Assembly: GCA_026709025.1 (NCBI GenBank)
Contig: JAPOTT010000009.1
Span: 1-64,000 of the forward strand
Direction of reading: 5' to 3'
Length of the DNA stretch: 64,000 nt
Source of the DNA: a bacterium
GTDB taxonomy: Bacteria; Actinomycetota; Acidimicrobiia; Acidimicrobiales; Bin134
Below, piece after piece: positions 10,129 through 44,070 of this stretch. Position 1 is the first letter of the stretch, and every line of letters begins with the position of its first letter. A model generated the notes under the pieces. The model searched no databases and had not been told where the DNA came from. It was given only the letters and a program-made list of their open reading frames with translations. A program made the position numbers and the translations under genes.

Positions 10129-10997
10129 CGGTGAACCTCAATTCGCTGGTAGCGCCAGCGGGTAAACAAGCTGAAGGCAAAGATGAGCCCAATCAGGGTT
10201 AGGTATATTGCCCATGTATCCACAGCATTTAGGGGTGCCCCGTCTAGGTCTGCCTCTCCAAAGATGCGCGCAACTGTTGCAAAGGGCAGGCCGATTAGAT
10301 TGAATAGCGCAAACGAGTCGCCCAGCTCTGCGCCCGTGCTGAGCCCATCGCCAACTGCTGAGCTGGCCAACAGGCCGACAAAAATACCAACGCTGGCTAG
10401 TGAGCGACGAGTGGTGAGGCTAGATAGAGCCAGCGAAAGCGCTGCCCAAAAAACGGCCACAGCGGTTCCCGCAGCCAATATGCGGCCCAGTTCTTTCAGC
10501 CATTCGACTGCGCCATCTGGTCCTACATCAGCAAAGGTGAAGGCGATCAGCAGTAGCAGGGGAGGTCCTAAGGTCATCACCCCTAGCACTGCTACGATGG
10601 CTGCAAACTTGGCTGCGATATATGTGTCGCGATTCAAAGGGGAGGCCAAGTACAGCCCTAGCATGCCGCTTCGGCGATCGGTGCATATTGCTTCTGGGGC
10701 TACGAATGCGGTGAACAAAAAGAGCGCACCGGTGATGAACCCGTAGTATTCGGGCGTTGACTCCATCCCAAGAGTGTCTCCATGGGGCAAAGCGGCGGCA
10801 ATTCCGATCAACACGATGGCAGGAATGAATGCAACTGCCAAGGTAAAGACGGGAAGAACCTTCTGCCAAAACGTTCGCTTTATTCCCAGCACGCGCTGCA
10901 TGGTGTGAACCATCAGGTTCAACATGGCGCGGCGTGGATGATGGCGGTGGCCGCTGTAGGCCATGTAGCCACGGTCGTGGATTCTGGCTTCGGTCAT
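10125..10997 (-). CDS. ABC-2-type transporter permease (first pair)
   Basis: 290 residues. A basic N-terminus is followed by a hydrophobic helix (VFTLAVAFIPAIVLIGIAAA), the coupling motif EAICTDRRSGMLGLYLASPLNR and four or five more helices. The DRRSGMLxLYLASPLxR segment is characteristic of ABC-2 permeases that work with CcmA-like ATPases. Both ends overlap neighbours by four bases (ATGA-type), so this pair and the next are one transcription unit. Substrate unknown. Confidence 0.87.
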   Translation of the reverse strand: MTEARIHDRGYMAYSGHRHHPRRAMLNLMVHTMQRVLGIKRTFWQKVLPVFTLAVAFIPAIVLIGIAAALPHGDTLGMESTPEYYGFITGALFLFTAFVAPEAICTDRRSGMLGLYLASPLNRDTYIAAKFAAIVAVLGVMTLGPPLLLLIAFTFADVGPDGAVEWLKELGRILAAGTAVAVFWAALSLALSSLTTRRSLASVGIFVGLLASSAVGDGLSTGAELGDSFALFNLIGLPFATVARIFGEADLDGAPLNAVDTWAIYLTLIGLIFAFSLFTRWRYQRIEVHR

Positions 10998-12344: not shown

Positions 12345-12370
12345 ATCTGTTAGCTAGATCCGTTAGCTAG
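12345..12370. repeat. 13-bp tandem duplication over the 3' end of the AcuI-like gene
   Basis: Two adjacent copies, ATCYGTTAGCTAG with one mismatch, lie at 12345-12357 and 12358-12370. The second copy covers the stop codon of the minus-strand reductase at 12363-12365. Another example of the short tandem duplications seen across this window. Confidence 0.75.
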
Positions 12371-13352
12371 CCACGTCGATAACAAGCCGACCGCGAATTT
12401 GGCCAGCGATTATTTGGGCTGCTGCGGTTGGTACTTCTGCTAGGCCGATGGTAGAGGTCATGTCTTTCAACTTTGTTGTGTCAAGGTCGCTGACTAGTCG
12501 GTTCCAAGCTTGTGTTCGGCGTTGGGTTGACTCATAAACGCAGTTCACTCCAGCCAGAGTGACGGCACGCAGGATAAAAGGAGCAACCGATCCAGGGAGA
12601 TCCATTCCCTGTGCTAGGCCGCAAGCTGCCACGCACCCATGGGCTTGGGTTTGAGAGATAATGTTGGCCAAGGTGTGGCTGCCCACCGTATCTATGGCAC
12701 CAGCAAAGCGGGCTTTGCCTAAGGGGCGTGCCGGGCCAGAAAACTCTTCTCGCCCAACCAGCGAGGCTGCTCCAAGCCCACGCAGGTAGCTGCCCTCGGT
12801 GTTGATGCGCCCGCTAGATGCAATTACCTCATAACCCAGTTTGGCCAGAACTGCTACTGCAATGCTACCAACCCCGCCAGCTGCGCCGGTAACTATCACC
12901 GGGCCACAAGAAGGTGTGATGTTGTGTTCTTCAAGCGTTAGCACGCTCAGCATCGCGGTGTAGCCCGCCGTGCCCACTGACATGGCCTGCTTGGTGGTAA
13001 GGGCATCTGGCAAAGCGGTGAGCCAGTCACCGTCCACAGCCGCCTTGGTGGCCATGCCGCCCCAGTGCAGTTCACCTATATCCCAGCCGTTCACGATTAC
13101 CCGATCTCCCGGCGACCATCGCGGATCTTCACTGCTAGCTACCCGCCCAGCTAGATCGATGCCAGGTACCATTGGCCAACTTCGCACGATGGGTGTGCCG
13201 TTTACGATGGCCAGGCCGTCCTTGTAGTTGAGCGCGGAGTACTCCACATCTACAACTATGGGCTGATCGGGGAGTTCGGCATCATCCAAATCCACGATGG
13301 CATGGGAGCGATTGTCGTATTCGTCTTTGCTAAGCAGCAGGGCTTTAAACAT
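12363..13352 (-). CDS. acuI: Acrylyl-CoA reductase-like MDR oxidoreductase (YhdH/AcuI family)
   Basis: 329 residues of the zinc-independent medium-chain dehydrogenase/reductase fold. YhdH/AcuI-family hallmarks are visible: SALNYKDGLAI near residue 40, MVPGIDLAGRV, the NADPH-binding loop VTGAAGGVGSIAVAVLAKLGY, and the AGVNCVYES end motif. AcuI reduces acrylyl-CoA to propionyl-CoA with NADPH and detoxifies acrylate, for example from dimethylsulfoniopropionate or 3-hydroxypropionate metabolism. No DMSP lyase or other acrylate gene is adjacent, so the true substrate is uncertain. Read away from the haloperoxidase-like gene. Confidence 0.85.
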   Translation of the reverse strand: MFKALLLSKDEYDNRSHAIVDLDDAELPDQPIVVDVEYSALNYKDGLAIVNGTPIVRSWPMVPGIDLAGRVASSEDPRWSPGDRVIVNGWDIGELHWGGMATKAAVDGDWLTALPDALTTKQAMSVGTAGYTAMLSVLTLEEHNITPSCGPVIVTGAAGGVGSIAVAVLAKLGYEVIASSGRINTEGSYLRGLGAASLVGREEFSGPARPLGKARFAGAIDTVGSHTLANIISQTQAHGCVAACGLAQGMDLPGSVAPFILRAVTLAGVNCVYESTQRRTQAWNRLVSDLDTTKLKDMTSTIGLAEVPTAAAQIIAGQIRGRLVIDVAS

Positions 13353-13571: not shown

Positions 13572-15416
13572 ATGAACATGTCTAGGAAGCTGCACTTTAG
13601 ATTTAAGAAGTCACCGGTGGTCGCGCTGTTGTGTGCAGTGTCTGTGCTGGTCTCTTCGCTTTTTTTGGTGAGTGCTACTTCATCGGCCCAAGAAGCTAGT
13701 GAAATTGCTGAGCGTGACCGTCGGGTAGCCGAACAAGAAAACAAGTTGAATGCCGAACGTTGTCGCTTGAATGTGGATACTGCGGCCGTTTTGGGAGGGT
13801 GCCCCGACTTTGACGAAAGTTCACCCAGCCCTGCCCCAAACCTGCCTAGCGCCGATGATATTGCTACACGCGATATGTTGCTGGCACAGCAGGAGGCCCT
13901 GCTAAATGCCTACCGCACGATGCAAGCATCTGACACCAGCGAGGGTGCCAACCGTGAGATTGATCTGGCCACCGGCAACGCCATGCAATTCGTATTTGGC
14001 CCTCGTCTGGGTCGTTGGCTTTTCCAAGAAGTGTCACCGGCCTTTAATGATGCGTCTATGGTGTTCCGATACAGCGTGCTGGCTTATGCCGCTTCGTTTG
14101 ATGCGGTAGCGCCTTATCACGAAACTGCTGTGGGTATTTATTCTCGGGTCGGGCGCCGTCCTGCTTCAGAGTCGGAGAACAACCTTTTGCCCAACACTGC
14201 GATCTTGTATGCCGTGTACCGCTTGATGCTGGAGTTCGCTCCCCATCGTGCTGATGAGTGGCGGGCAATTCTCACCGACTACGACCTGGATCCCGATGAC
14301 AGCACAGGGTTGGATTGGCCTTGCGATAGCAGCGATCGCACCGATGCCACTGCGGCGGCAATCGGCAACTTGGCCGCTAAATGCACCATGGATGCCCGAC
14401 GCAATGATGGGTTCAACCAATTCGGCGATGTTAACGGCTTGCCGCTGCAAGACACCACTGGATACACCCCGCTCAACACGCCCTTTGAGTTGAACGATGC
14501 CTCGCGTTGGCAGCCCTTAGTTGTACCCCACACCAGTGGCGTGTTCCGGTCGCAGGTTTTCGTGACTCCGCAGTGGGCCAATGTGCAGCCCTTCTCTGGT
14601 TTCAACCCCAGAGACCATCGGGTTGATCCTCCCACAGAGAGCAATCACGCCAATGCAGAGGAGTATCGGGCCCAGGCCCAAGAGGTAATTGAAGAGGTTG
14701 CCAACTTGGATGACTACAAGAAGACCATTGTGCATTTCTTTGACAACAAGCTGCGGGGAGCGCAGTTCCTGCCGCAGGTCAAGATCGACAACCTTGACGA
14801 CGTTGTTGCGTTCATTCAGAGCAACTTCTTGGTTGAGATGGCCTCACACGATGTAGGCGTGGTGGTCTGGCAGGAAAAGCAACGCTTTGACGCAGTGCGT
14901 CCTGTTACTGCCATTGGTCATCTCTTTGGCGATGAGATGATACAAGGATGGGGTGGCCCCGGTGAGGGCACAGTTGAGGTGCCTGCTAATCGGTGGAGAT
15001 CCTTTGCTAACACCGCCGATCACCCTGAGTACCCGTCGGCTACAACCTCATTCTGTGGGGCCTATGCTCAAGCGTTGCGCCGTTATGCGGATACAGAAGA
15101 TGCCACAGGTGGCTATACCGGTGTGCGTCCTGCGGGCTCTAATCCAATAGAACCTGGGGTAACCCCCGCAACCGATATTACTTTGAACTTTGAAACTTGG
15201 AGTGAGTACGAAGACCTCTGTGCCAAGAGCAGGGTTTGGGGTGGTGTTCACTTCTGGCCTGCAGTTGAAGTAGCTGTGCCGTTGGGCCAAAAGATCGGCG
15301 ACCTTGCCTATGAATACTGGGAAACCCTTATGGATGGCACCGCTGAGATGGTTGGGACGGTTGAGCCTCTAGAGCGCGACGCGCTGCTAGATGAGGCTCA
15401 CTGGACTGGCCGTTAG
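13572..15416 (+). CDS. Secreted vanadium-dependent haloperoxidase-like (PAP2-fold) protein, atypical active site
   Basis: 614 residues. A basic start and hydrophobic segment ending near TSSAQE (residues 14-40) form a signal peptide. The C-terminal half carries the vanadium-haloperoxidase landmarks: EKQRFDAVRP (about residues 434-443; Lys and Arg that bind vanadate), HPEYPSATTSF (about 485-495) and KSRVWGGVHFWPAVE (about 552-566; Arg and His). In known enzymes the middle motif is PSGH, where His is the acid-base residue. Here the GH pair is replaced by AT, so classical halide oxidation is doubtful. Start supported by AAGGAG seven bases upstream. It could be a divergent haloperoxidase, a phosphatase-like enzyme or a non-catalytic relative. 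Confidence 0.75.
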   Translation: MNMSRKLHFRFKKSPVVALLCAVSVLVSSLFLVSATSSAQEASEIAERDRRVAEQENKLNAERCRLNVDTAAVLGGCPDFDESSPSPAPNLPSADDIATRDMLLAQQEALLNAYRTMQASDTSEGANREIDLATGNAMQFVFGPRLGRWLFQEVSPAFNDASMVFRYSVLAYAASFDAVAPYHETAVGIYSRVGRRPASESENNLLPNTAILYAVYRLMLEFAPHRADEWRAILTDYDLDPDDSTGLDWPCDSSDRTDATAAAIGNLAAKCTMDARRNDGFNQFGDVNGLPLQDTTGYTPLNTPFELNDASRWQPLVVPHTSGVFRSQVFVTPQWANVQPFSGFNPRDHRVDPPTESNHANAEEYRAQAQEVIEEVANLDDYKKTIVHFFDNKLRGAQFLPQVKIDNLDDVVAFIQSNFLVEMASHDVGVVVWQEKQRFDAVRPVTAIGHLFGDEMIQGWGGPGEGTVEVPANRWRSFANTADHPEYPSATTSFCGAYAQALRRYADTEDATGGYTGVRPAGSNPIEPGVTPATDITLNFETWSEYEDLCAKSRVWGGVHFWPAVEVAVPLGQKIGDLAYEYWETLMDGTAEMVGTVEPLERDALLDEAHWTGR

Positions 15417-15555: not shown

Positions 15556-16470
15556 GTGAACATTGCTATGTGTGGCATGGACCTGTACAGAAACGGAGGT
15601 TGCCCAGAATCTTTGGACACCATTCGAGAGCATGTGCAGCGTGCCCACAGTGGGGGTTTCAACGGTTATTGGCTCCCTCAAACCAACAGCATGGACGCTC
15701 TGACCATTCTGGCCTCGGTCGGATCCGGGGTTGATGTGCCCATGGGAGTGGCCGTCGTTCCGGTGTACACCCGTCATCCGGTAGCGTTGGCTCAGCAGGC
15801 CTTGACGGTGAACAAGGCGCTCAACGGAAACCTGACCCTCGGCGTGGGTGCTTCCGACCGGTTTATCGTAGAACGGGTGTGGGGTCAGAGCTTTGACCGC
15901 CCTGTGGCGTACATGTCTGAGTATCTAGAGATATTGCTGCTCCTGCTAGAAGAGCGGGAGGCCTATATGAGGGGCAAGCGAGTATTCATGAGGGGTGAGT
16001 TAGACATCGAGGGCCCCGCCTGCAGTGTGATCATGGCAGCTCTTGGCCCTCGCATGCTGGAGTTGGCAGGCAGGGTGGCCGCTGGTGCCATGACATGGAT
16101 GACGGGGCCGAAGACGATCCGAGACTTCACTGTGCCCACCATTAACAAAGCGGCGGAGGCCGCAGAGCGTGGCGCTCCAGAGGTGATCGTATCGCTGCCA
16201 GTGTGCGTAACCGACGACGCTGAAGGTGCCAAGGCGCTGGCCAACGAATTGTTGGCCAAGTGGGAGCAGGCCCCCGCGTGCCGGGATATGTTAGACCGTG
16301 AGGGCCTCTCTAGCGCTGGGGATATCTGTGTGATCGGTAACGAGGATCAGGTGGCAGAGAGGCTGGCTGTGTTCTTTGCGGCAGGCGCTACGAAAGTTGT
16401 GGTGGTTCCTGCTGGCACTGACGAGGAAATTGAGCGCACCTGGGAAGCAATGGCAGCGCTTGTAGCCTAA
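15556..16470 (+). CDS. LLM-class (luciferase-like) oxidoreductase, probably F420-dependent
   Basis: 304 residues of the bacterial luciferase-like TIM barrel. Typical segments are GYWLPQTNSMDALTILA, VPVYTRHPVALAQQALTVNKAL, LTLGVGASDRFIVERVWG and a final VVVPAGTDEEIERTW. The motif TRHPxxxAQQAxTxxxxxxGxxxLGxG is usual in F420-dependent members from actinobacteria. GTG start at 15556 after a GAGGG-containing leader. It precedes the ACP/ketosynthase operon by 113 bases on the same strand and could supply a redox tailoring step; the shared direction and spacing make this plausible but not proven. Confidence 0.85.
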   Translation: MNIAMCGMDLYRNGGCPESLDTIREHVQRAHSGGFNGYWLPQTNSMDALTILASVGSGVDVPMGVAVVPVYTRHPVALAQQALTVNKALNGNLTLGVGASDRFIVERVWGQSFDRPVAYMSEYLEILLLLLEEREAYMRGKRVFMRGELDIEGPACSVIMAALGPRMLELAGRVAAGAMTWMTGPKTIRDFTVPTINKAAEAAERGAPEVIVSLPVCVTDDAEGAKALANELLAKWEQAPACRDMLDREGLSSAGDICVIGNEDQVAERLAVFFAAGATKVVVVPAGTDEEIERTWEAMAALVA

Positions 16471-16491
16471 CTGTCTAATGGTATCGCCGAA

Positions 16492-16520
16492 TTGTCGGGA
16501 AATCTGTTACAAGATAAAGT
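16492..16520 (+). promoter_or_regulatory. Possible sigma-70-type promoter of the biosynthetic operon
   Basis: TTGTCG at 16492-16497 and TAAAGT at 16515-16520 are separated by 17 bases, the ideal spacing, 64 bases upstream of the ACP start. Both boxes are imperfect matches. Confidence 0.35.
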
Positions 16521-16554
16521 GTCTGACGAAATCTACTGAACTTGACTTAACTGA

Positions 16555-16570
16555 TGGGTTAGAGAACCCA
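16555..16570 (+). promoter_or_regulatory. Short hairpin directly before the ACP ribosome-binding site
   Basis: TGGGTT (16555-16560), a four-base loop AGAG, and AACCCA (16565-16570) form a perfect 6-bp stem that ends right at the AAAGGA ribosome site of the ACP gene (ATG 16584). It could tune translation or mRNA stability. Confidence 0.4.
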
Positions 16571-16583
16571 AAAGGAATAAATT

Positions 16584-16970
16584 ATGGAAGAAATATCTGC
16601 GAAGATACACGAGATAGTGGCTGATTCGCTTGACATTGAGCAGGACGAGGTGAGTGATGAGGCTCGTCTGAACGATGATCTTGAAGCCGATTCTCTTGAC
16701 ATTTTGGACATCAACTACCGGGTTCGCAAAGAGTTTGGTGTGGAACTGGCCTTGGCCGGTGTTCAAAGGCACTTTGAGGAGTCAGGAATCCGCTGGCTTG
16801 ATGAAAACGGAGGGGTGACCACAGAGGGTTTGGCTTGCCTTAATGATTTCATGCCCGAGGTGGACGACGGGCGGATTGCAGCAGGTGACAAGGTAGAGAA
16901 CGTCTTTGTCATGCTAAAAGTTGGCGACCTAACCGCCATGTTGCAAAGAGCTTTGGCTGAGAATGCCTAA
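16584..16970 (+). CDS. Acyl carrier protein with a C-terminal extension
   Basis: The phosphopantetheine attachment motif is EADSLDIL with Ser37 as the modified residue, preceded by LNDDL as in classical ACPs. At 128 residues it is longer than the usual 75-90; the extra part includes GLACLNDFMPEVD and a final VFVMLKVGDLTAMLQRAL helix. It would carry acyl intermediates for the ketosynthase encoded immediately downstream (overlap of eight bases). ATG start with AAAGGA seven to eight bases upstream. Clearly dedicated to this locus rather than housekeeping FAS, since the next seven genes are also acyl-chain enzymes. Confidence 0.88.
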   Translation: MEEISAKIHEIVADSLDIEQDEVSDEARLNDDLEADSLDILDINYRVRKEFGVELALAGVQRHFEESGIRWLDENGGVTTEGLACLNDFMPEVDDGRIAAGDKVENVFVMLKVGDLTAMLQRALAENA

Positions 16971-18171
16971 GGCGGTCATTACCGGCCTCGGTGCCGTGTG
17001 TTCAGCAGGCTGGGGTATGGACGATTGCTGGGAGGCTGCGGTCCAAGGGCGTTCGGGTACCGGCAGGCTGGACATGGTGGAAGTCGGAGATGAGGATTGC
17101 CAGGTAGCCGCCCAAGTACCAGCCCGAGATGGCAATGGCTACGAATCATCCGTGTTTCGGCTGCTGGACTTCTACCGGTTTGCCGAAGCCGAGGCCTTGG
17201 AACATGCTGGCTTAGATCGCAATGCCCTTGTTAGCAACCAGCGGGCCAGAGTGGTTGTGGCCAGCCATGGGTTCGCATGGAAGTCGGATGAATTCGCCGC
17301 GGCCAGCCGTGGTGAGAAAGTTGATGGTCACGATTTGTCCCTTCACTTCAGACAGCCGGTGGAGAGCGCCCATCAACTTATTGGCGGCGATTTTGGCGAC
17401 CGCTACTCGGGGGTGGGAACGGCCTGTTCGGCGGGTTTGGTGGCTTTGTTGGAAGCAGGTGAGATGGTGCGATCAGGCCTTGCCGACATCGTGATCGCGG
17501 GTGGCGTTGAGACCGCCATCAAGGAGGCCATGGTCACTATGTATTCTCGGCTGGGAGCACTGACCACGCTCAACGACACGCCTGAGACCGCATCAAGGCC
17601 CTTTGACGTAACCCGCGCAGGATTCGTGGGTGGCGAGGGAGCCGCCATGTTGGTGATTGAGTCGGAAAAGAGTGCTGAGGCCAGGGGAGTTACACCCCTT
17701 GCGGAGTTGGCTGGTTATGGAACGGCCGTCTCTACTGCTCACATAACCGCAGGGTCGGTAGGAGGTGAGATACAGGCGCTTTCTATGCAGCGTGCCCTAG
17801 ACAATGCGGGTGCTGGGATAGCCGATGTGGATTACATCAATATGCACGGAACATCTACCCCAGACAACGATTTGTCGGAGAGCGAGGGGGTTCTGCGGGT
17901 GTTCGGAGATGCCGCACCTCCCGTCAGTTCTACGAAGGGGGTTACTGGGCATCTTCTTGGCGCAGCGGGTGCCATAGAGGCTGCGTTTTCGGTGATGGCC
18001 ATTCGTACCGACACCTTGCCCCCCACTGCGAACTTGAATGAAGTTGATCCCCGCTGCAAGCTCGGCGACTACATCAGCGGAAGCGCCCGTCATACCCCAT
18101 GTAGTGGAGTGCTCTCCAACTCCTTCGGTTTGGCTGGCTCCAATGCTTCGGTGTTTTTGAGGCAGCTATGA
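16963..18171 (+). CDS. Beta-ketoacyl-ACP synthase (FabF/KAS II-like)
   Basis: 402 residues with a complete Cys-His-His catalytic set: Cys155 in GTACSAG, His295 in NMHGTSTPDND and His330 in KGVTGHLLGAAG, plus the closing NSFGLAGSN loop. It catalyses decarboxylative Claisen condensation of an acyl primer with malonyl-ACP. Overlaps the ACP stop by eight bases and the next gene by four. The best functional reading is the condensing enzyme of a type II fatty-acid or polyketide system, paired with the ketosynthase-like protein that follows. Confidence 0.92.
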   Translation: MPKAVITGLGAVCSAGWGMDDCWEAAVQGRSGTGRLDMVEVGDEDCQVAAQVPARDGNGYESSVFRLLDFYRFAEAEALEHAGLDRNALVSNQRARVVVASHGFAWKSDEFAAASRGEKVDGHDLSLHFRQPVESAHQLIGGDFGDRYSGVGTACSAGLVALLEAGEMVRSGLADIVIAGGVETAIKEAMVTMYSRLGALTTLNDTPETASRPFDVTRAGFVGGEGAAMLVIESEKSAEARGVTPLAELAGYGTAVSTAHITAGSVGGEIQALSMQRALDNAGAGIADVDYINMHGTSTPDNDLSESEGVLRVFGDAAPPVSSTKGVTGHLLGAAGAIEAAFSVMAIRTDTLPPTANLNEVDPRCKLGDYISGSARHTPCSGVLSNSFGLAGSNASVFLRQL

Positions 18172-18860
18172 GAGCTTTTGTTGATGCTTCGGCCAAGATT
18201 GGTTTCGGCGATCCTTATGAGTTGAACCGCCGTGAGCTGGTGCCATTTCGCCATGACCGTCGCTGCATTGGCGACTTTGAGTTCTTGACCTTGGCGTGTT
18301 TCAAGGAACTGCTGGGCGCTGAAGGCCAGATGGAAGGGCGCCGCTGCGGACTCTACTTCGCCGGTGCTAAAGACACCATGAGGCTTGACGCGGAGCTTCA
18401 TGAGTATCTCGCCGACAAGCCAGACAGGGTTGCCGCGCTCACACAGTTCTCTGAGGAGCTCAACCCTTTGGTTGCACTCGAATGGCTTACCAATATCGGG
18501 CTCTACCTCGCCGTTAAAGAAGGCATCGATTGCTGGCGGCACACTCAGTACATTAACCACTCCCATTCAGATCACAGCGCGGTGGCAGCAGCGGTGCGAG
18601 ATTTGTCTATCGGGGCGGTAGATGTCGGGTTTGCAGTGGTCGCTATTGCTGGTCCTCGCTTTGATGAGGTGCCTGAGAAAGTAGGTGCCGTTGGGGTGCG
18701 TATCGTTGCGCAAGGGGATAATGAGGCTGGTGATGTCTTTGAGGTTGTGTCTCGTCCTCAGCCCGAACTGTTATTAGAGATGCAAAGTGCTCACTCAGTG
18801 GTAGGGCACGGTTCGGCTTTGGCCATTGAACTGCCTGTAAACGAGCCTGTGGGGTCATGA
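18168..18860 (+). CDS. Ketosynthase-like protein lacking the active Cys (chain-length-factor-like half)
   Basis: 230 residues that resemble only the N-terminal half of a ketosynthase: FEFLTLACFKELL early, NPLVALEWLTNIGLYLAVKEGI, then a segment AVAAAVRDLSIGAVDVGFAVVAIAG that aligns with the stretch following the active Cys in KS enzymes. Where the Cys loop is expected (about residues 127-135) the sequence reads QYINHSHSD, with no Cys. Such halves occur as partners in aryl-polyene and related type II systems (for example small KS/CLF proteins). ATGA overlap with the KS gene indicates coupled translation and a likely KS/CLF-type heterodimer (inference). Confidence 0.6.
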   Translation: MRAFVDASAKIGFGDPYELNRRELVPFRHDRRCIGDFEFLTLACFKELLGAEGQMEGRRCGLYFAGAKDTMRLDAELHEYLADKPDRVAALTQFSEELNPLVALEWLTNIGLYLAVKEGIDCWRHTQYINHSHSDHSAVAAAVRDLSIGAVDVGFAVVAIAGPRFDEVPEKVGAVGVRIVAQGDNEAGDVFEVVSRPQPELLLEMQSAHSVVGHGSALAIELPVNEPVGS

Positions 18861-19603
18861 CATCCGATGAGCCTAGGTCGTCCTGTGTCGTAGTCGGGGC
18901 GACAGGTGCAATTGGAGCGGGAATTTGCCGGGCGCTCGCCCCAAACTGGAATGTGCTTGGGGTTGGAAGAAGCGAGTTGCCAGAGGATTTGTCGGCTGCT
19001 GGTGTCGCTGGCCTTCGGGCAGACATAACCGCTCCTGATGTTGGGGAGGTAATCGAAAGCAGGCTCCATGACCAGGGTTGGGATTGCGATGGTCTGGTGA
19101 TCGCTTCGGGCATTCACCAAGTGGCGCTGCTGGCCGAATTGAAGATTGAATCGATGGAGCAGATGCTCGCGGTCAACTTTCTGGGGCCTTTGGCGATCAC
19201 AAAGGCTCTCGTGCCCGCAATGCTGTCTCAAAGGAGGGGTTCGATTGTCTGGATTAGTTCACTGCGCGGAGAGCGAGGCGACCCGGGACAGGTGGCTTAC
19301 GCCGCTAGCAAGGGGGCGATGAACGCATCCCTCTATTCGCTGGCACGTGAGGTGGGCCGCCGAAATGTCCGAATTAATGTCGTGGCACCGGGGATGGTTG
19401 TATCGCCAATGGCCGAGATGATTGCTCAGACAAGGCAGGCTCTGGTGGATCGCAGTCCGCTGGGTCGGATGGCTGACCTTGAAGAGTTGGCTGCGGCCGT
19501 AGCCTGGCTTGTAGGGCCGCACAGTTCATACGTGACCGGCACGATTTTGAACGTGGACTGTGGGGAGTCTGCAGCCGTACACCAAGAGCCGGTGTCGGCA
19601 TGA
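18857..19603 (+). CDS. Short-chain dehydrogenase, ketoreductase (FabG-like)
   Basis: 248 residues. Nucleotide loop VVVGATGAIGAGI near the start, NFLGPLAITKALVPAML, catalytic Ser135 and Tyr148-Ala-Ala-Ser-Lys152 (YAASK), then NVVAPGM and a FabG-type end with TGTILNVDCG. All catalytic residues of a classical SDR are present. Expected to reduce the beta-keto group made by the ketosynthase with NADPH. Overlaps both neighbours by four bases. Confidence 0.88.
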   Translation: MTSDEPRSSCVVVGATGAIGAGICRALAPNWNVLGVGRSELPEDLSAAGVAGLRADITAPDVGEVIESRLHDQGWDCDGLVIASGIHQVALLAELKIESMEQMLAVNFLGPLAITKALVPAMLSQRRGSIVWISSLRGERGDPGQVAYAASKGAMNASLYSLAREVGRRNVRINVVAPGMVVSPMAEMIAQTRQALVDRSPLGRMADLEELAAAVAWLVGPHSSYVTGTILNVDCGESAAVHQEPVSA

Positions 19604-20352
19604 GAACCCGGCCTGCGGAACAAGTGCCGGTAGTTGTGGCTTGGGGATCCAGCGGGATTGGTGCCGCTATTGTGCGCTCTTTGGCCACCGCAGGACATCC
19701 AGTGTCGTTAGGTTACCCTGCTGGTGTTTCCTCTCACCGCGATCTGGTTGCAGAACTTACTGATTCTGGTTGCAAGGTGGCCGATTATGAGCTTGAAGGG
19801 TTAGATCCGAGTTCTTTGAGAACATTCAGGGAGATGAGCGCCGCGCAATTCGGTGTACCGCTATATGTAGTAGGTGTTACCCCTGTTGTGGAACCGAGCC
19901 CATCGCAAGATTTGACTCCGCAGCAGTGGCAGAGCACGATCCACGCAAATCTGTCAGAAACCTTCTGGCTGGCTCAGGAGTTTCTTGCTGGTATGTGCGA
20001 GCAGAACTATGGGCGTGTGGTGTTTGTGGGTTCGGTGGCATCGGTGGTGGGCTACCCCGGGCATGCGGCCTTTTGCGCATCCTCAGCAGCCCTAGAGGGT
20101 TTGGTGCGGTCTTTAGCTGTAGAGTTTGCGCCTCATGGTGTGCTCGTAAACGCGGTGGCACCGGGATATATAGAAGGCGGTGGAGATGCCCTTTCTGGTG
20201 ACGTGGATCGTAAGCAATTACGGACCCGAACTGCTTTGCGCCGGGCAGGTACTCCGGGTGAGGTTGCTGAGGCAGTTCGCTTTTTGTGCGGCCCTGGTGC
20301 TAGTGCCATAACGGGATGCGTGTTGAAGGTAGACGGCGGCCTGACCGCTTAG
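19600..20352 (+). CDS. FabG-like SDR with degenerate catalytic residues
   Basis: 250 residues with the SDR fold: AWGSSGIGAAIVRSLA at the start, NYGRVVFVGSVASVVGYPG, VNAVAPGYIEGG and a TGCVLKVDGGL end. In the active-site helix the expected Tyr-x-x-x-Lys is Phe158-Cys-Ala-Ser-Ser162; the Ser (145) remains. The nucleotide loop is also altered (Trp in place of the first Gly of TGxxxGIG). It therefore probably does not reduce ketones by the usual mechanism and may act as a structural partner of the active SDR just upstream (overlap of four bases), or catalyse something else. The lesion is in key residues only; the rest is well kept. Confidence 0.82.
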   Translation: MRTRPAEQVPVVVAWGSSGIGAAIVRSLATAGHPVSLGYPAGVSSHRDLVAELTDSGCKVADYELEGLDPSSLRTFREMSAAQFGVPLYVVGVTPVVEPSPSQDLTPQQWQSTIHANLSETFWLAQEFLAGMCEQNYGRVVFVGSVASVVGYPGHAAFCASSAALEGLVRSLAVEFAPHGVLVNAVAPGYIEGGGDALSGDVDRKQLRTRTALRRAGTPGEVAEAVRFLCGPGASAITGCVLKVDGGLTA

Positions 20353-20385
20353 AGTTTGTTGTGCTTTTGGAAAAGGAGAGCAGTT

Positions 20386-21168
20386 GTGGGTGATTTGGTC
20401 AGGATCGAAACCGGTACAGCCGAGGGTGTGGCAACGCTGCGGTTAGATAGCCCTAAGAGAAACCCTTTGGGCGCCGACATGATGGCAGACCTACATCAGG
20501 CGGTGGAGGAACTGTCGGAGCGAACCGACATTCGGGCCGTAGTGGTCTGGGGCGGTCCGCGGGTGTTCTCCTTAGGCGCTGACATAGACCTGCTCAAAGG
20601 ATTGAGCGTAGATGAGGCCCGTGAGCAGTCTAGAGGGTTCAACAGGGCGTTCAGGGCCGTGGAGCTTTTACCACAGATCACCATTAGCGCCGTGAACGGT
20701 TACGCTTTGGGTGGCGGGTGCGAGTTGGCCATGGCCACAGAGTTTCGGCTGATCGGGCAGGGAGCGGTGTTGGGTTTTCCAGAGATCAAATTGGGGACAA
20801 TACCCGGAGCGGGCGGAACCCAAAGACTGAGCCGTCTGGTGGGCATCACAAAGGCCAAGGAACTGATCTACAGTGGGCGCAATGTGTGGCCTGAAGAAGC
20901 GCTGTCTATAGGGCTGGTCTCCGCAGTATTCCCAGATGACGATGTGTATGACGAGGCCTTGAAGTTAGCTACGGGATACGCCCACGGGCCTGCAGCAATG
21001 TCCATCGTCAAAAAAGCTATTTTGGAAGGTTATCCCTTGTCTTTGGATGATGCGCTAGATGTGGAGGTAGAGGCTTTCGCCGCATGTTTTGCTACTGAAG
21101 ATGCCCATATTGGTGTGGCTAGCTATTTCGATAAAGGCCCCGGCAAGGCGCAGTTCACCGGCAGGTGA
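20386..21168 (+). CDS. Enoyl-CoA hydratase/crotonase family protein of the biosynthetic locus
   Basis: 260 residues. GTG 20386 is chosen because AAAAGGAG ends eight bases before it, and because the resulting start (GDLVRIETG) matches its paralogue at 52860 (GEFVKMETG). Crotonase landmarks: oxyanion-hole FSLGADI, then NGYALGGGCELAMATE with the first catalytic Glu, and FPEIKLGTIPGAGGTQRL with the second. Likely role: dehydration of a 3-hydroxyacyl chain, or CoA-ester chemistry, in this locus. It replaces the hot-dog dehydratase usually found in type II systems. Very similar overall to the 52.9-kb gene, suggesting duplication from a housekeeping enzyme. Confidence 0.88.
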   Translation: MGDLVRIETGTAEGVATLRLDSPKRNPLGADMMADLHQAVEELSERTDIRAVVVWGGPRVFSLGADIDLLKGLSVDEAREQSRGFNRAFRAVELLPQITISAVNGYALGGGCELAMATEFRLIGQGAVLGFPEIKLGTIPGAGGTQRLSRLVGITKAKELIYSGRNVWPEEALSIGLVSAVFPDDDVYDEALKLATGYAHGPAAMSIVKKAILEGYPLSLDDALDVEVEAFAACFATEDAHIGVASYFDKGPGKAQFTGR

Positions 21169-21215
21169 TCATGCAAGGTGTAAACATCACTGTCAGCAAG
21201 CTAGCCTGATCACTA

Positions 21216-22196
21216 GTGACACTGCTTGAGTTCAACCAACACACAATGAACACCGACCTATACGGGGAAATTTACGGGTCGGGGGTGTATCCCTTACCAT
21301 CAGGTTATATAGTCCCCCGCCCACAGGAGGTGCTAGACGTAACTGCGGCCGACGGAGCCACCATCATTGTACGCCGTCACGGAAATCCTAATGGGCCGCG
21401 GCTTTTGCTGAGCCACGGGTGCGGGCTTGCTTCTGATCTTTACTATCCGTATTGGTCGTTGCTTACTGATCGCTTTGAAGTTTGTCTGTTTGATATGAGG
21501 AGCCACGGCTGGAACCCTGCTGTGTCCACTGGCAGCTTTAATATCCCAACCATGGTTGGTGATAGTCGGGCCGTTATTGAGGCTATCTCGTCTAGTTGGG
21601 GGGAAAAGCCGTGTTATGGGGTATTCCACTCGATTTCTACCATCGTTGGGTTGGCTCATCAGCTTGAAAAGCCTGATTTCGCAGCCCTGGTTCTGTTCGA
21701 TCCTGCCCTTCAGTGGCCTTTACGGGGGAACAAGACCATAGATGATGTGTGTAGGCGCCAAGCCAGGCGGGCTCGTCGCAGACAGAGGCATTTTGAGTCT
21801 TATTGTGAAATGGCCAAGATGTTTGCTAATGCACCGGCCTACTCACTCATACCACCTGATGTGCTAATGCTGTTGGCTGAAACTACCCTTAGGTACGCAG
21901 AAGGTGGAGGCTATGAGTTGAGGTGCTCACCTGAACAAGAGGCCCAGCTGTACGAGTGGTACTTTGGCTTTTCCATGCAAATAATCGACAAGCTAGACAG
22001 CTATGACATCCCCTTGAAGGCCATCGGAGCTGATCCCACTTTTCAGACATCCTTTATACCCAGCTTTAACCTGAGCAAGTTATCCAAGTTTGAATACGAC
22101 TTTTTGCCAGACAAAACGCATTTCTTACAGCTTGAGGCCCCCGAGGAGTGCGCCACGTTGACGGTTGAGTTCTTGGAACAACACGGCTTAGCCTAA
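21216..22196 (+). CDS. Alpha/beta-hydrolase fold protein (possible thioesterase)
   Basis: 326 residues. Elements of the fold: PRLLLSHGCGLASDLYYPYW (oxyanion side), CLFDMRSHGWN, then the nucleophile elbow GVFHSISTIVG, and a C-terminal DKTHFLQLEAPEE with the probable catalytic His. The elbow reads F-H-S-I-S rather than G-x-S-x-G, an unusual form. Placed 47 bases after the crotonase, it could release the product from the ACP. Start GTG 21216 versus ATG 21246 is not resolved; no ribosome site decides it. Confidence 0.75.
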   Translation: MTLLEFNQHTMNTDLYGEIYGSGVYPLPSGYIVPRPQEVLDVTAADGATIIVRRHGNPNGPRLLLSHGCGLASDLYYPYWSLLTDRFEVCLFDMRSHGWNPAVSTGSFNIPTMVGDSRAVIEAISSSWGEKPCYGVFHSISTIVGLAHQLEKPDFAALVLFDPALQWPLRGNKTIDDVCRRQARRARRRQRHFESYCEMAKMFANAPAYSLIPPDVLMLLAETTLRYAEGGGYELRCSPEQEAQLYEWYFGFSMQIIDKLDSYDIPLKAIGADPTFQTSFIPSFNLSKLSKFEYDFLPDKTHFLQLEAPEECATLTVEFLEQHGLA

Positions 22197-22207
22197 GAAG
22201 GCTTTTT
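22190..22207 (+). terminator. Short Rho-independent-like terminator between convergent genes
   Basis: AGCCT (22190-22194), loop AAGA, AGGCT (22199-22203), then TTTT. It lies across the stop codon of the hydrolase and at the end of the opposing acyltransferase gene, closing the biosynthetic operon. Confidence 0.45.
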
Positions 22208-23129
22208 ACGCGGCTTTGATGATTCGTTTGCGGGAAATTCCTGAGTAGCGAATCATGTTGAATATGCCCGCATTGGGTAAAGATTCCACAAACAGGGTGT
22301 TTTCGTCAAAAGATTGAACGGTTGCCATCAAGTCGAAGGGCTTTTCGATGTTGATTGCTAGCCTATCCCACAGATTGTCGAGGCTAACAGGGCCCGGATC
22401 TCCGGTGAAGCAGTCGTAAAAGTCAACTGCGTTTGACTCATCACTGTGAATGATCTCAAGATCGCTCATTGCCTTTTTGAGTTCGTCTGCCACCCCCTCC
22501 ATTAGGGGGCAATGGCTAGCGAAGTCGATGGGTAGCCGTACAACGTTGGCTTCAATTTGACTGGAGATGATTTTTTCGGCCTCTTCACGGGCATCTAGTC
22601 GGCATCCCAGGGTTACAGAACTTCGGGTCATTACTCCCGATACCCAGCAGCCATCAATGCCTTGTACCACTGCGGCTGTTTCTTCTGGGGCAGGCCCCAC
22701 TACTGAGAGCATGCGCCCCTCGCCGTGGCGGATGCTGGCTTCGGCTATCAGTTCTCCTCGGATCATGAGCAATCTGCAAGCATCTTCAATGCGAATAGCG
22801 CCCATCAGGGCAGCCGCAGCCCACACACCGCTGGATTGGCCTATAACCGCCATTGGCTGGGCATTTCCGTAGCGTTGGCGGGAACAGGCGTAGGTGAGGG
22901 CTGCCACGCTGCTTTGGTATGGGCCTGGGGCGGAACCCACCTCGCCTCTGGCAATTTGACCTGCAACGTCTATGTTTAGGAAGCTGCCGATGCGCTCTAG
23001 GTAGGTGCTTTTTAGCAATGGGGTATCACGCATGCTGTTCATGTCGATACCGCCACCGGGAAACATCACTGCTTCTTGGGAGCTAGTGATGGGTGCTTGG
23101 CTATCTTGATTTGTTGTATCTTCGTTCAC
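22206..23129 (-). CDS. Acyltransferase (FabD/malonyl-CoA:ACP transacylase-like)
   Basis: 307 residues. FabD landmarks: VMFPGGGIDM near residue 21, nucleophile loop VIGQSSG with Ser99, LMIRGELIAEAS with the substrate-binding Arg124, and SHCPLMEGVADEL with catalytic His206. The nucleophile motif is GQSSG, where most transacylases have GHSxG, so the residue before the Ser differs. Catalytic Ser, Arg and His are all kept. It would load extender units on the ACP of the convergent operon that ends ten bases away. The only gene of the locus on the minus strand. Confidence 0.8.
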   Translation of the reverse strand: MNEDTTNQDSQAPITSSQEAVMFPGGGIDMNSMRDTPLLKSTYLERIGSFLNIDVAGQIARGEVGSAPGPYQSSVAALTYACSRQRYGNAQPMAVIGQSSGVWAAAALMGAIRIEDACRLLMIRGELIAEASIRHGEGRMLSVVGPAPEETAAVVQGIDGCWVSGVMTRSSVTLGCRLDAREEAEKIISSQIEANVVRLPIDFASHCPLMEGVADELKKAMSDLEIIHSDESNAVDFYDCFTGDPGPVSLDNLWDRLAINIEKPFDLMATVQSFDENTLFVESLPNAGIFNMIRYSGISRKRIIKAA

Positions 23130-23202: not shown

Positions 23203-23757
23203 ATGAGCAGTAGGAGCGAATCTGTAAGCGATGCCCCAGCAAGCTCGCAGGAGCAGTCTGGGCGACGGCCACGAATAGCTAGAAGAATATTAAGGTTCGG
23301 TAAGGGTTCCCCACAGGACGGCTACTTGGGGCAGTTTTTCGGGCCGCACTTTGCAGACCTCTGGCTGATATTTAGGGTGGGCTTCGCCATTATGACGGCG
23401 ATGCACGGCATCCAGAAGACCTTCTTGTTGTGGAACTTCCCTGCAGATCAAGATTTAGACCCTTGGGTGGATATTGCGGGATATGTAGAGTTGATTGCCG
23501 CCGTGCTGATTGGTATTGGGTTGTATACCCGAATGGCTGCTGGTGCCATGATGGTGGTTACAGGATTGTCGTTTTTCCTGATCCACATAGATCGAGGACT
23601 GTGGCCTCATTACTGGAACCCTGAGTTTGGCTTCGACCATCTTCACCATGGCGGCGAAGCAGCAATCATGCACTTCTTGGCAGCTTGGGCTATCGGTATC
23701 TTAGGTAGCGGCAAGTGGGGTTTGGAGCGCATGAGAACCGGTAAGGAGATGTTCTGA
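23203..23757 (+). CDS. DoxX-family membrane protein
   Basis: 184 residues with four hydrophobic helices (about 45-65, 85-105, 112-130, 150-170). Motifs FRVGFAIMTAMHGIQK, GYVELIAAVLIGIGLYTRMAAGAMMV and FLAAWAIGILGSGKWGLERM are typical of the DoxX family, a redox- or oxidative-stress-associated membrane family of uncertain biochemistry. Encoded alone between the acyltransferase and the molybdenum hydroxylase operon. Confidence 0.85.
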   Translation: MSSRSESVSDAPASSQEQSGRRPRIARRILRFGKGSPQDGYLGQFFGPHFADLWLIFRVGFAIMTAMHGIQKTFLLWNFPADQDLDPWVDIAGYVELIAAVLIGIGLYTRMAAGAMMVVTGLSFFLIHIDRGLWPHYWNPEFGFDHLHHGGEAAIMHFLAAWAIGILGSGKWGLERMRTGKEMF

Positions 23758-23808: not shown

Positions 23809-26085
23809 TCAGCTAAGGGCGATATCGGCAGGGCGAATCGGTATTCGGGGTAGGTCTAGGCCAGTAGCGGCTCTCACAGCGGCTGCTACGGCAGCAGATG
23901 AGGAGATGGTTGGGGGTTCGCCGATGCCTTTGGCACCGTAGGGGGCACCGGGCTCTGGTTCTTCAATGAAGGCAGCGATGGTGACATCGGGCATATCTAA
24001 GGTGGTGGGGATTACGTAGTCGGTGAAGGAGGCGTTGCGGACTAAGCCATTATCGAGCACGATCTCCTCCATCAGCGCTAAGCCCACTCCTTGGGCGGTG
24101 CCGCCTTCAATTTGGCCCACAGCTTGAGTGGGATTGAGGATGCGCCCCACATCTTGGGCGGTGGTGATGTGGCGTATGCGAACTAGGCCGAGGTCTGGGT
24201 CTACATCGGCAATCACCTTGTGGGCTGCGCAAGCGAATGACACATGGGCGTTGCCTTGGCCGTTTTCGTCTAGTGCTTCGGTAGGGGCGTGACGGTACAC
24301 AACATCGGCTTCGTAGGCACGGTTTGCGGTTAGTTCGGCCAGCGAAGCTTGTTGCTGGCCGTCTAGGGTGCAAATCAACCCGTCGCGCAACACCAGCCCA
24401 TCTAGATGTACCCCCCATTTGGCGGATATGTCGGCAAGTATCAGAGAACGCACCTTGTTGCAGGCTGCCTGTACAGCACCGCCCGACATCCACGTTTGGC
24501 GGCTAGCGGAGGTAGACCCAGCAGAGCCGATGGTGGCGGTTTGAGCTGGGGCCAGAATTACCTCGTCTATGCCCAACTCTGTACGGGCGATCTGTTGAGC
24601 CAAAGTTACGAACCCCTGGCCAACCTCGGCACACGCACAGGTAATGGTGGCCACCCCGTCGGCCAACCGGCAGGCGGCCGAAGAGAAATCGTCAAACCCT
24701 TCAGAGAACATGAGGTTCTTAAAGCCCACAGCAAACCCCTCGCCGCGTGCTGTGTCGGTGGCCTCGGTGGTGCGCCCAGAGCCTCCCGGTAAGTTGCGGT
24801 GATCTTGTGTGGGTGCTAGCTCAGGTGTAGGTGCCTCGGCGCATTGGCGGATCACCTCGGCCACTGGGAAGGTGCCGGTGATTTGTTGCCCGGTGATTAG
24901 GCGGTCGCCGGGTGCCAGGGCATTGAGCAAGCGCAACTCTATTGGGTCCATCTCTAGGGCTACGGCCAGTTTGTCCATCTGTGATTCGTGGGCGAAGCAG
25001 GTTTGTACTGCGCCAAAGCCTCGCATAGCCCCACAAGGCGGGTTGTTGGTTCGCACCGCTAAGCCTTCTATGTGGGCTGAGCCAACCTTGTAGGGGCCAA
25101 CCGCAAAGCAAGCAGCGTTGGCAATAACTGCCCCTGAGGAGGAGGCATAAGCCCCGCCATCTAACACGATGCGGGCTTCAACCTTGACGAGGCGACCTTG
25201 GCGGGTTGCGTGGTGGCGGTACCACATCTTGGCGGGATGGCGGTGCACATGTCCGAGGAAGGACTCGTCGCGGCTGTAGACCATCTTTATGGGCTTTTGG
25301 GTGTACAGGGCCAACAGGCATAGGTGGAGTTGTAAGGAGAGGTCTTCGCGCGCCCCAAAGGCACCACCAACACCAGCTAGGGTGATTCGCACTTGTGCTT
25401 CGGCTATACCCAAGCAGGCAGCAATCTGGCTGCGATCAACATGCAGCCATTGTGTAGACACAAACAGTTCCACCCCGCCATCTTCATCGGGTAAGGCCAT
25501 GCCCGACTCGGGACCCATGAAGGCTTGGTCTTGCATGCCGACCTCATAGGTGCCTTCCACCGTCACCTCGCCGGTTGCGTTGATGTTGCCGTGGCGAATG
25601 TTGAGTTGGCGAATGACGTTGCCGTCGGGATGAATTGGGGCGGCTTGAGGTGCTGCTTCGGAATCGGTTAGTGGTTCGGTTACCTCATAGTACACAACGA
25701 TGGCTTCTGCGGCACGGCGGGCTATGTCGGGATGGTCGGCAGCAACCAACGCCACTGGTTCGCCAACATAGCGAACTTGGTTGGCTGCTAGCACTGGCTG
25801 ATCTCCGTGTTCCAAGCCGAAGTTGAGTTGACCCGGAACATCTTCGGCTGTGAGCACCGCGTGTACGCCAGTGGTAGCTAGGGCTGGGCCGATATCGATG
25901 CTAACGATGCGGGCTGAGGCGTGGGGTGAGCGCAACGTGTGGCCCCACAAAAAGTCATCAGCCCACAAATCAGAGGAGAAGGCGAAGCTGCCTTGTACCT
26001 TAGGTATCCCGTCGGGGCGGGTTACATCTGCGCCAATCCCACGGTTAGCGGTGTTTGTGTGGGTGATGGTTGCTTGCCTGCTCAT
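23809..26085 (-). CDS. Xanthine dehydrogenase family, molybdopterin-binding large subunit
   Basis: 758 residues of the molybdenum hydroxylase large subunit. Landmarks: N-terminal RPDGIPKVQGSFAFSSD, GVGGAFGAREDLSLQLH (molybdopterin contact), NNPPCGAMRGFG, EVGQGFVTLAQQIARTELG and the catalytic Glu in YGAKGIGEPP near the end. The order and spacing fit PucD/XdhD-type subunits that oxidise purines such as hypoxanthine or xanthine; the exact substrate is not readable. Last gene of a minus-strand operon FAD subunit, Fe-S subunit, Mo subunit; its start overlaps the Fe-S gene by four bases. Confidence 0.92.
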   Translation of the reverse strand: MSRQATITHTNTANRGIGADVTRPDGIPKVQGSFAFSSDLWADDFLWGHTLRSPHASARIVSIDIGPALATTGVHAVLTAEDVPGQLNFGLEHGDQPVLAANQVRYVGEPVALVAADHPDIARRAAEAIVVYYEVTEPLTDSEAAPQAAPIHPDGNVIRQLNIRHGNINATGEVTVEGTYEVGMQDQAFMGPESGMALPDEDGGVELFVSTQWLHVDRSQIAACLGIAEAQVRITLAGVGGAFGAREDLSLQLHLCLLALYTQKPIKMVYSRDESFLGHVHRHPAKMWYRHHATRQGRLVKVEARIVLDGGAYASSSGAVIANAACFAVGPYKVGSAHIEGLAVRTNNPPCGAMRGFGAVQTCFAHESQMDKLAVALEMDPIELRLLNALAPGDRLITGQQITGTFPVAEVIRQCAEAPTPELAPTQDHRNLPGGSGRTTEATDTARGEGFAVGFKNLMFSEGFDDFSSAACRLADGVATITCACAEVGQGFVTLAQQIARTELGIDEVILAPAQTATIGSAGSTSASRQTWMSGGAVQAACNKVRSLILADISAKWGVHLDGLVLRDGLICTLDGQQQASLAELTANRAYEADVVYRHAPTEALDENGQGNAHVSFACAAHKVIADVDPDLGLVRIRHITTAQDVGRILNPTQAVGQIEGGTAQGVGLALMEEIVLDNGLVRNASFTDYVIPTTLDMPDVTIAAFIEEPEPGAPYGAKGIGEPPTISSSAAVAAAVRAATGLDLPRIPIRPADIALS

Positions 26086-26564
26086 GGGGTGCTACGCATC
26101 TGTTCTGCTGCCGCATGCACTGCGGCTAGGATTCTTCCGTAACCGGTGCAGCGGCAGAGATTTCCCGACAGTGCTTCACGCACATCGGTATCGGTGGGTG
26201 CCGGGTCGGCCTCTAGCAGATCGTGAACAGCCACGATCAAACCCGGGGTGCAGAACCCACACTGCACGGCACCGTTATCCACAAAGGCTTGCTGTACAAC
26301 AGACAAATCCTCTGGCCCGTTGCTGAGCCCTTCTACTGTGGTGATCTCTTGGCCCTCAACGGCTGCGGCCAACACCAAACAAGAACAGGTGAGCATCCCG
26401 TCTACCAACACCGCACAAGAACTGCATTCACCCTCCGTGCAGGCATTTTTGGTGCCTGTTAGCCCGAGCCTTTCTCGGAGCACGAACAGCAAGCTCTCGG
26501 TGATGTCGGAGTCGGTTACCTCGCAATCGGTGCCGTTTACTCGCAGTGAGTAAGTATTAGACAT
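26082..26564 (-). CDS. Xanthine dehydrogenase family, 2Fe-2S subunit
   Basis: 160 residues. Plant-type cluster ligands NACTEGECSSCAVLVDG with a later Cys (LTCSC), and the second cluster in QCGFCTPG and NLCRCTGYGRIL: eight Cys as in the two 2Fe-2S domains of the family. ATG 26564 (MSNTYS) is preferred over ATG 26570 because AAGGA lies six bases before it but directly abuts the earlier one. Passes electrons between the molybdenum site and the FAD subunit. Confidence 0.93.
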   Translation of the reverse strand: MSNTYSLRVNGTDCEVTDSDITESLLFVLRERLGLTGTKNACTEGECSSCAVLVDGMLTCSCLVLAAAVEGQEITTVEGLSNGPEDLSVVQQAFVDNGAVQCGFCTPGLIVAVHDLLEADPAPTDTDVREALSGNLCRCTGYGRILAAVHAAAEQMRSTP

Positions 26565-27423
26565 GGCCATTCCTTTTTGGTGAACAGACTCGGTTTAGCG
26601 CTCGGGCGGCTAGCACGCCAATGGCGTGGCGGCGATAGGCCGCCGTTGAGCGATGATCGTCAATCGGGGAGCATTCTGTGGATACTCGCTGCCCGAACTC
26701 TTGGGCCACTGCGGGGTCTATCGCAGCGCCGTTATCCCAATCGATGCGCTCGGCTGCCCATGCTTCGGCTTTGAGTGCCCGTGGTATTCCAGCATCAACT
26801 GATCCCATAGCACAGCGCACCGAGCGGGTATCGAGATCGGCAACTAGCGCAACTCCGGCCATGGATATCACCATGGCGTTGCGGGGACCTATCTTGAGGT
26901 ACTCTTGGCCTCCGTTGGTGCGGTCTAGTTCGGTAGCGATGATTAGCTCTCCTGGCTCTAAACATGTGCGTTTTACTCCCACCATAAACTCATCTAGTTG
27001 CAGTTGTCTTTGGCCGTTGGCGCTCTGTAGGAGGATTGTGGCGTTGAGGGTAGCTAGCACCGGCAGCGTGTCGCCAGCAGGGGAGGCGGTTCCCAAGTTG
27101 CCACCCAAGGTGCCTGCATTGCGTATCGGTGGTGAGCCCACCGTGCGTGCTGCTTGAGCCAAAGCGGGAGCAGCTTGGGCTATTTCGGTTGTCATGATCT
27201 CTGTGTAGGTAACCCCAGCACCTATGTGGATGCGATTTGGGGTTATCTCCCAGCGGCGCAATTCGGGTACTTTTGCTAGCGCCAACACGCTAGTAGGGCG
27301 GCGCATCCCACGGTTGATCTCTACCATTAGATCGGTGCCTCCAGCCAACACGGTGGCATCAGGATCAGCAGTTAGTGTGCTTAGTGCCTCTTGAAGGCTG
27401 AGGGGTAAAACAACTCTATTCAT
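26557..27423 (-). CDS. Xanthine dehydrogenase family, FAD-binding subunit
   Basis: 288 residues of the CO-dehydrogenase flavoprotein type. FAD contacts are visible in TVLAGGTDLMVEINRG and PIRNAGTLGGNLGTASPAGD. ATG 27423 (MNRVVLPLS) is preferred to the upstream in-frame start at 27489, which would add a Cys-rich, family-foreign leader. First gene of the three-gene operon. Divergent from the carbamoylase gene across only 46 bases, so the two operons may share regulatory sequence. Confidence 0.9.
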   Translation of the reverse strand: MNRVVLPLSLQEALSTLTADPDATVLAGGTDLMVEINRGMRRPTSVLALAKVPELRRWEITPNRIHIGAGVTYTEIMTTEIAQAAPALAQAARTVGSPPIRNAGTLGGNLGTASPAGDTLPVLATLNATILLQSANGQRQLQLDEFMVGVKRTCLEPGELIIATELDRTNGGQEYLKIGPRNAMVISMAGVALVADLDTRSVRCAMGSVDAGIPRALKAEAWAAERIDWDNGAAIDPAVAQEFGQRVSTECSPIDDHRSTAAYRRHAIGVLAARALNRVCSPKRNGHV

Positions 27424-27469
27424 CTTTGGTCTTCTGTTTGCTCCACATCTCTGACAAAATATCTCACCT

Positions 27470-29790: not shown

Positions 29791-29793
29791 CCG

Positions 29794-32352
<2,559 letters not shown>

Positions 32353-32418
32353 GTTGTGGTGTATGGGTCGCACCGTGTGTATGGGTAGCTGTGTGGTGTG
32401 TAGGTAGCAGGCCCACAC

Positions 32419-33474: not shown

Positions 33475-33476
33475 CT

Positions 33477-39434: not shown

Positions 39435-39463
39435 CCAGTAAGTACGTAGACCAGTGGCCGCGG

Positions 39464-43968: not shown

Positions 43969-44045
43969 GCAGGGATACTAACTGTCACACCCTGTACCTA
44001 AAGTAAACGCGGTTATCGGTCGTCCACCGACCCCTCCTAATCTCT

Positions 44046-44061
44046 GGCAACGCTGGTTGCC
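44046..44061 (+). promoter_or_regulatory. Conserved dyad before the fused toxin/antitoxin-like gene (copy 2)
   Basis: GGCAAC-GCTG-GTTGCC, a perfect 6-bp dyad with a four-base spacer, ending ten bases before ATG 44071. Same element, spacing and position as at 36032-36047. Confidence 0.6.
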
Positions 44062-44070
44062 TAAAGCGCA

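Follow-up and report, generated by a model that had tools for sequence, protein, structure and literature searches.

The 64,000-nucleotide stretch analyzed here (the window), part of a 2.2-Mb draft genome, carries a cluster of about 11 genes between positions 13572 and 23757, from a vanadium haloperoxidase (VHPO) gene through a gene for a DoxX-family membrane protein. With a probability of about 0.55, we read it as a horizontally exchanged, discrete type II PKS/FAS-like cluster of probably sponge-symbiotic Acidimicrobiia, whose released product would be halogenated or oxidatively cyclized outside the cytoplasm. The gene set, the catalytic residues, the purifying selection, the co-occurrence, the shuffled synteny and the N-terminal export signals on which this reading is built were all observed directly. 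The original prediction had placed the locus at 15556-23129; this range is too short, as it overlooked the VHPO (13572-15416) and DoxX (23203-23757) genes, which belong to the same unit. A zinc-type oxidoreductase gene at 12363-13352 was also considered as a member and left out, as it is not conserved beside the cluster in related loci. The genes are as follows:

13572-15416 (+): VHPO, NapH1-type, 614 aa (Pfam DUF6851 1.2e-37, VCPO_2nd 8.8e-39)
15556-16470 (+): LLM-class oxidoreductase, F420-dependent, 304 aa (TIGR03564, 280.7 bits)
16584-16970 (+): ACP, 128 aa, DSLD motif (PF00550)
16963-18171 (+): KS, 402 aa, Cys-His-His intact (PF00109/PF02801)
18168-18860 (+): KS partner, 230 aa, without nucleophilic Cys (4-bp overlap with KS; conserved in 8 genomes)
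18857-19603 (+): SDR1, FabG-type ketoreductase, active site intact (PF13561, 3e-40)
19600-20352 (+): SDR2, catalytic residues lost (PF13561, 3.4e-39)
20356-21168 (+): crotonase-fold enoyl hydratase-like protein (PF00378, 8.6e-54), with GTG 20386 as a possible start
21216-22196 (+): alpha/beta hydrolase, candidate thioesterase (PF12146/PF12697)
22206-23129 (-): stand-alone acyltransferase (AT), GQSSG (PF00698, 1e-10; PDB 3hjv, 1.6e-14)
23203-23757 (+): DoxX-family membrane protein (PF07681, 8.1e-07; synteny)

The genes listed in the original prediction are all in frame at those positions and belong to the families named, except for the 230-aa protein. The type II PKS/FAS-like character of the locus is borne out by the joint presence of a discrete ACP, a KS with intact active site, a ketoreductase and an AT, the latter being the predicted convergent GQSSG-type transacylase. 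Most genes do overlap by 4 to 8 bases, with overlaps of 8, 4, 4, and 4 bp from the ACP through SDR2; the crotonase gene follows SDR2 after a 3-bp gap, or after about 33 bp if GTG 20386 is the start. A promoter scan of the locus gave no informative site. The LLM oxidoreductase ahead of the ACP was also correctly recognized, its TIGR03564 match (280.7 bits) lying above the curated cut-off of 234.25.

The ACP is long, as claimed, with 128 residues and an insertion of about 50 aa ahead of the last helix. The AlphaFold2 model (pLDDT 85.6, closing helix at 113-127) has a normal ACP fold, the insertion apart. Among solved structures, those nearest to it are ordinary ACPs and the specialized ACP RPA2022 (3lmo; VIA-align Z of about 10 over 90 residues), and its profile matches RPA2022 and the ACP model PRK06508. 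ACPs of similar length, aligned over 90%, are encoded on Streptomyces linear plasmids. One of them, at 32% identity, belongs to a type II cluster (NZ_CP108982) in which it adjoins FabD, KR, and KS genes; that cluster differs from ours by two dehydratase genes and several KS genes, and the stretch read holds no VHPO or LLM gene.

For the motif residues of the KS, SDR, crotonase, hydrolase, and AT proteins, catalytic roles were assumed from general family knowledge. The Cys of TACSAG, the His of HGTST and the His of GHLLG in the KS are invariant in 7 orthologues, and SDR1 retains YxxxK in all copies, so that the KS and the first SDR were rightly called active. The KS reaches at most about 38% identity to the plasmid FabF-type KS and 36% to the other KS of the host, and it scores 306.6 bits against the FabF model vs 174.7 bits against AmcF (cut-off 325). 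A phylogeny of the KS and its partner had been proposed as a check: the KS forms a separate deep clade in a tree whose deeper branches could not be ordered, and the joint MAFFT alignment of KS and partner was misaligned.

The 230-aa protein had been described as a half-size KS-like partner without Cys. The missing nucleophilic Cys is confirmed; KS-likeness, in turn, is not demonstrable from the sequence. The protein has no match in Pfam (PF00109 and PF02801 included), NCBIfam or the PDB, a PF13723 search with E values up to 10 matched none of the 8 partners, and no relatives were found among viral contigs and plasmids. PF13723 was likewise absent from 149 genomes of the phylum, with a control genome giving the expected match. 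Comparison of the partner with the KS by hhalign and hmmsearch did not rise above shuffled sequences, and the positive control, ApeC (a family of 10 sequences built in this analysis) against KS, failed likewise. An AlphaFold2 model computed with 8 close relatives in the alignment reached a pLDDT of 34. Two apparent distant relatives from the genome scan (L024, L025) were rejected as antisense frames overlapping UDP-glucose dehydrogenase-like genes. Half-size KS partners as such are not new: ApeC, which pairs with ApeO, is of half size and has a single thiolase domain (PMC8358021), and AmcG, the KS partner of AmcF, has no recognizable motifs (PMC10698177). A half-size CLF-like or cyclization-factor-like KS subunit is in our view the probable identity of the protein.

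The second SDR is degenerate, as predicted. In the window it has FxxxS in place of YxxxK; none of the 6 comparable copies retains the Lys, and only one retains the Tyr. Every gene tested is under purifying selection, including this dead SDR2 (dN/dS 0.10-0.18) and the partner (0.16-0.25); thus, neither is decaying. SDR2 is probably a structural subunit acting with SDR1.

Both catalytic Glu residues of the crotonase (CELAM, PExxLG) are conserved. Crotonases usually act on 3S-hydroxyacyl groups, whereas FabG-type SDRs make the 3R form, and the dehydration step is therefore uncertain. The atypical elbow noted in the hydrolase (VFHSIS in the window) recurs as FHS[ILV]S in all copies, and the Ser and the C-terminal His (THF) are kept wherever the sequence reaches. 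The AT keeps its Ser (GQSSG), the carboxylate-binding Arg (RGEL/RGDL) and the His (SHCPLM). Not every enzyme of the cluster is obligatory, since the LLM is absent in one carrier (G395), where a second crotonase (L016:6395-7177) occupies the position held by the LLM in other loci, and since the L010 stretch yielded no crotonase. DoxX belongs by synteny to the cluster in L010, L011, L015, and G408, and most related loci have it close to the hydrolase, crotonase or SDR1 gene.

The VHPO scores 129.9 bits for DUF6851 and 133.8 bits for VCPO_2nd (Pfam cut-offs of 27), and matches the structures 9ptr (1.5e-119), NapH1 (3w35, 9.7e-93) and NapH3 (8cxl, 2.3e-81). Homology extends along about 460 residues of the enzyme domain for 9ptr and 9l8x, and about 420 for NapH1 and NapH3. 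In the alignment, the vanadate ligands K, R, S, R, and H (K..RP, PS, SRxxGxH) are invariant across the copies, with the motifs WQEKQRFDAVRP, YPSA, and SRVWGGVH in 7 orthologues. The vanadate motif reads PSATTS, vs PSGSTS in NapH1 and PSGFTT in NapH3, the change of Gly to Ala being shared with 9ptr. These departures from NapH1, Gly to Ala and Ser to Thr, weigh against the preferred reading. According to a published scheme, K324 and S427 of NapH1 separate halogenases (selective chloroperoxidases) from relatives like NapH3, a non-halogenase (PMC12871659). The Lys equivalent to K324 is present in our VHPO (DNKLRG) and a Thr stands at the S427 equivalent (by alignment, with an inferred numbering offset of 4); NapH3 has neither that Lys nor a hydroxyl residue at the S427 position. 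Because of these two residues, halogenation appears more likely than a rearrangement of the NapH3 type.

On sequence inspection, the N-terminus of the window VHPO reads as a signal peptide, with two short-repeat copies ahead of the enzyme domain, and that of L011 and L015 as a lipobox. These export signals suggest that the VHPO is probably exported and would work outside the cytoplasm on the released product; once exported, it cannot act on ACP-bound intermediates. The N-terminal module (window 13572-13930, with repeats like RDQLIANQENLLNTYRC) is also carried by secreted-looking but unrelated proteins of the genus (L067:946-2979, L068:1925-3970, L069:1636-2835), RCC1-like repeat proteins among them, and may serve them all for surface anchoring or sorting.

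We read seven related loci, in addition to the fragments of genome G396. Six other multi-gene loci hold the same gene set with differing order and strand, at protein identities of 44-96%. The window, L012, L014, and L016 share the row ACP-KS-partner-SDR1-SDR2-crotonase, and in L010, L011, and L015 SDR2 adjoins the AT gene on the opposite strand. In spite of the reshuffling, the VHPO keeps its place beside the ACP or LLM gene; all related loci of sufficient length have a copy adjoining the cluster. In G408, the cluster contains a type I PKS of 3.25 kaa (KS-AT-DH-MT-ER-KR-ACP-KS) and a xanthine/uracil-type permease (L066:7364-17128), both between the crotonase and AT genes. Such a type I PKS was found neither in the window nor in the other related loci read; it may resemble the Sup-type type I PKS of sponge symbionts.

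Among 22 genomes of the genus, 8 carry the cluster (G396 and G409 as fragments). The partner, the AT and the VHPO enzyme domain were each counted in 7 genomes and the LLM in 6; the AT occurs in the same genomes as the cluster, the LLM in cluster-bearing genomes exclusively, and VHPO, LLM, partner, and AT are all absent from the other 14. Among about 85,000 species genomes scanned, carriers were found only in this genus, plus one in another family. The KS, VHPO, and partner trees strongly support L011, the locus of that last carrier, as the sister of L010 of this genus, and these topologies indicate a transfer of the cluster between families.

The named carriers are uncultured Acidimicrobiia of the Candidatus Poriferisocius group; one record (L020) is Candidatus Poriferisocius aerobius, a genus placed under Acidimicrobiia in NCBI. 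Isolates with the name prefixes RHO, CAR, SB, and p16 are further carriers. Rhopaloeides odorabile and Carteriospongia foliascens were sampled in a study on demosponges of coral reefs (PMC8163846), and the names suggest that RHO and CAR stand for these two hosts; judged by their names, the carriers are probably sponge symbionts. Sponges are rich in halogenated metabolites, often with no producer identified, and the cluster is a concrete candidate source.

From the genes and their conserved residues we infer the reaction steps, the complex of KS and partner, and the nature of the product. The AT would load an extender unit onto the long ACP. Chain elongation would fall to the KS, probably in a pair with the 230-aa partner, which would act as a half-size CLF or an analogue of a cyclization factor. 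SDR1 would reduce the 3-oxo group, the dead SDR2 probably serving it as structural subunit, and the crotonase would dehydrate or otherwise process the 3-hydroxyacyl group; the F420-dependent LLM enzyme may reduce an enoyl group. After release by the hydrolase, the product would be chlorinated, brominated or oxidatively cyclized outside the cytoplasm by the probably exported VHPO.

The collections and papers searched yielded no described cluster of the same composition, and we provisionally regard the cluster as a gene combination without described match. With the aryl polyene systems (ApeO-ApeC) it shares a KS with a half-size partner, an ACP, a KR and compact genes. However, the PF13723 CLF, the hot-dog dehydratases, the aryl-priming ligase and the MMPL export of these systems are missing here, and the VHPO, LLM, crotonase, AT, and dead SDR are found here; the crotonase and the dead SDR thus set the locus apart from aryl-polyene clusters, as had been proposed. 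Aromatic type II PKS have a full-size, KS-homologous CLF, which this cluster lacks. With the napyradiomycin enzymes NapH1 and NapH3, the VHPO shares homology along most of the enzyme domain and the vanadate ligands, and it keeps the NapH1-type Lys. It differs by its probable export, its N-terminal repeat module and PSAT in place of PSGS, and its pathway by a type II PKS/FAS-like companion without prenyltransferase or type III PKS. A Streptomyces relative of the VHPO belongs to a biosynthetic cluster that also encodes an aromatic prenyltransferase and a type III PKS.

Several other explanations have to be weighed against the horizontally exchanged biosynthetic cluster with an exported VHPO. The product might be an envelope or membrane lipid, comparable to those of AcpXL or ladderane systems, with the VHPO serving cell-surface defence or modification of envelope lipids. 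The ACP matches to RPA2022 and PRK06508, the DoxX membrane protein often found among the cluster genes and the apparent lipoprotein character of the VHPO in L011 and L015 are consistent with this idea. We nevertheless consider it unlikely, as the conserved set holds no lipid acyltransferase, glycosyltransferase or MMPL-type transporter, and as NapH1, NapH3 and the Streptomyces relative of the VHPO come from natural-product pathways. It could also be that VHPO and LLM are neighbours by mere convenience, the genes from ACP to AT making a fatty acid and the VHPO making diffusible hypohalite for defence or signal destruction. The VHPO is indeed encoded separately, at its own distance from the ACP operon, and its export module is common to unrelated secreted proteins of the genus. 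However, neither several rearrangements nor a family boundary has separated it from the set, and a full-length copy is absent from 14 of the 14 cluster-free genomes of the genus, which makes this explanation improbable.

In the cispentacin/coronafacic acid type, AmcF-AmcG, a motif-less KS partner and a discrete ACP are shared with our cluster (PMC10698177), and the 230-aa protein could by the same logic be an AmcG-like cyclization factor leading to a small carbocyclic acid. AmcG is likewise motif-less and KS-paired (PMC10698177), and the KS has its sub-cut-off match to AmcF. But this match is far surpassed by that to FabF, a KR and a crotonase are present here, and neither AmcH (adenylate-forming acyltransferase) nor AmcE (hot-dog) has a homologue among the cluster genes, which include no AMP-binding protein; we hold this origin to be very doubtful. 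A bolder version of the preferred reading sees in the cluster a new class of type II PKS, with a KS and half-size diverged partner, a dead SDR as scaffold, a crotonase in place of hot-dog dehydratases and a surface VHPO. We advance it only tentatively; if true, sponge symbionts make halogenated polyketides or fatty acids through it. In any case, the cluster couples dissociated polyketide enzymes with a probably exported protein of the haloperoxidase family, is restricted, as far as searched, to few Acidimicrobiia, and constitutes a test case for the roles of a dead SDR and of a motif-less KS partner.

Other genes of the window are also worth mentioning. Upstream of the cluster, at 9136-10997 (-), lie a DrrA-like ABC transporter ATPase (189.6 bits, below cut-off) and an unassigned 290-aa neighbour. 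Downstream, the row at 23809-34484, which resembles purine catabolism genes, encodes molybdenum hydroxylase subunits, a selenium-dependent-xanthine-dehydrogenase-like protein, an SsnA-like aminohydrolase and another F420-type LLM enzyme. Finally, a Class 1 DISARM core of DrmD, DrmMI, DrmA, and DrmB was detected at 36636-50126 (+) (PADLOC; 1024.5, 1488.7, 942.8, and 248 bits), flanked by the candidate defence genes PDC-S01 (34552-35838) and PDC-S27 (50487-51995).
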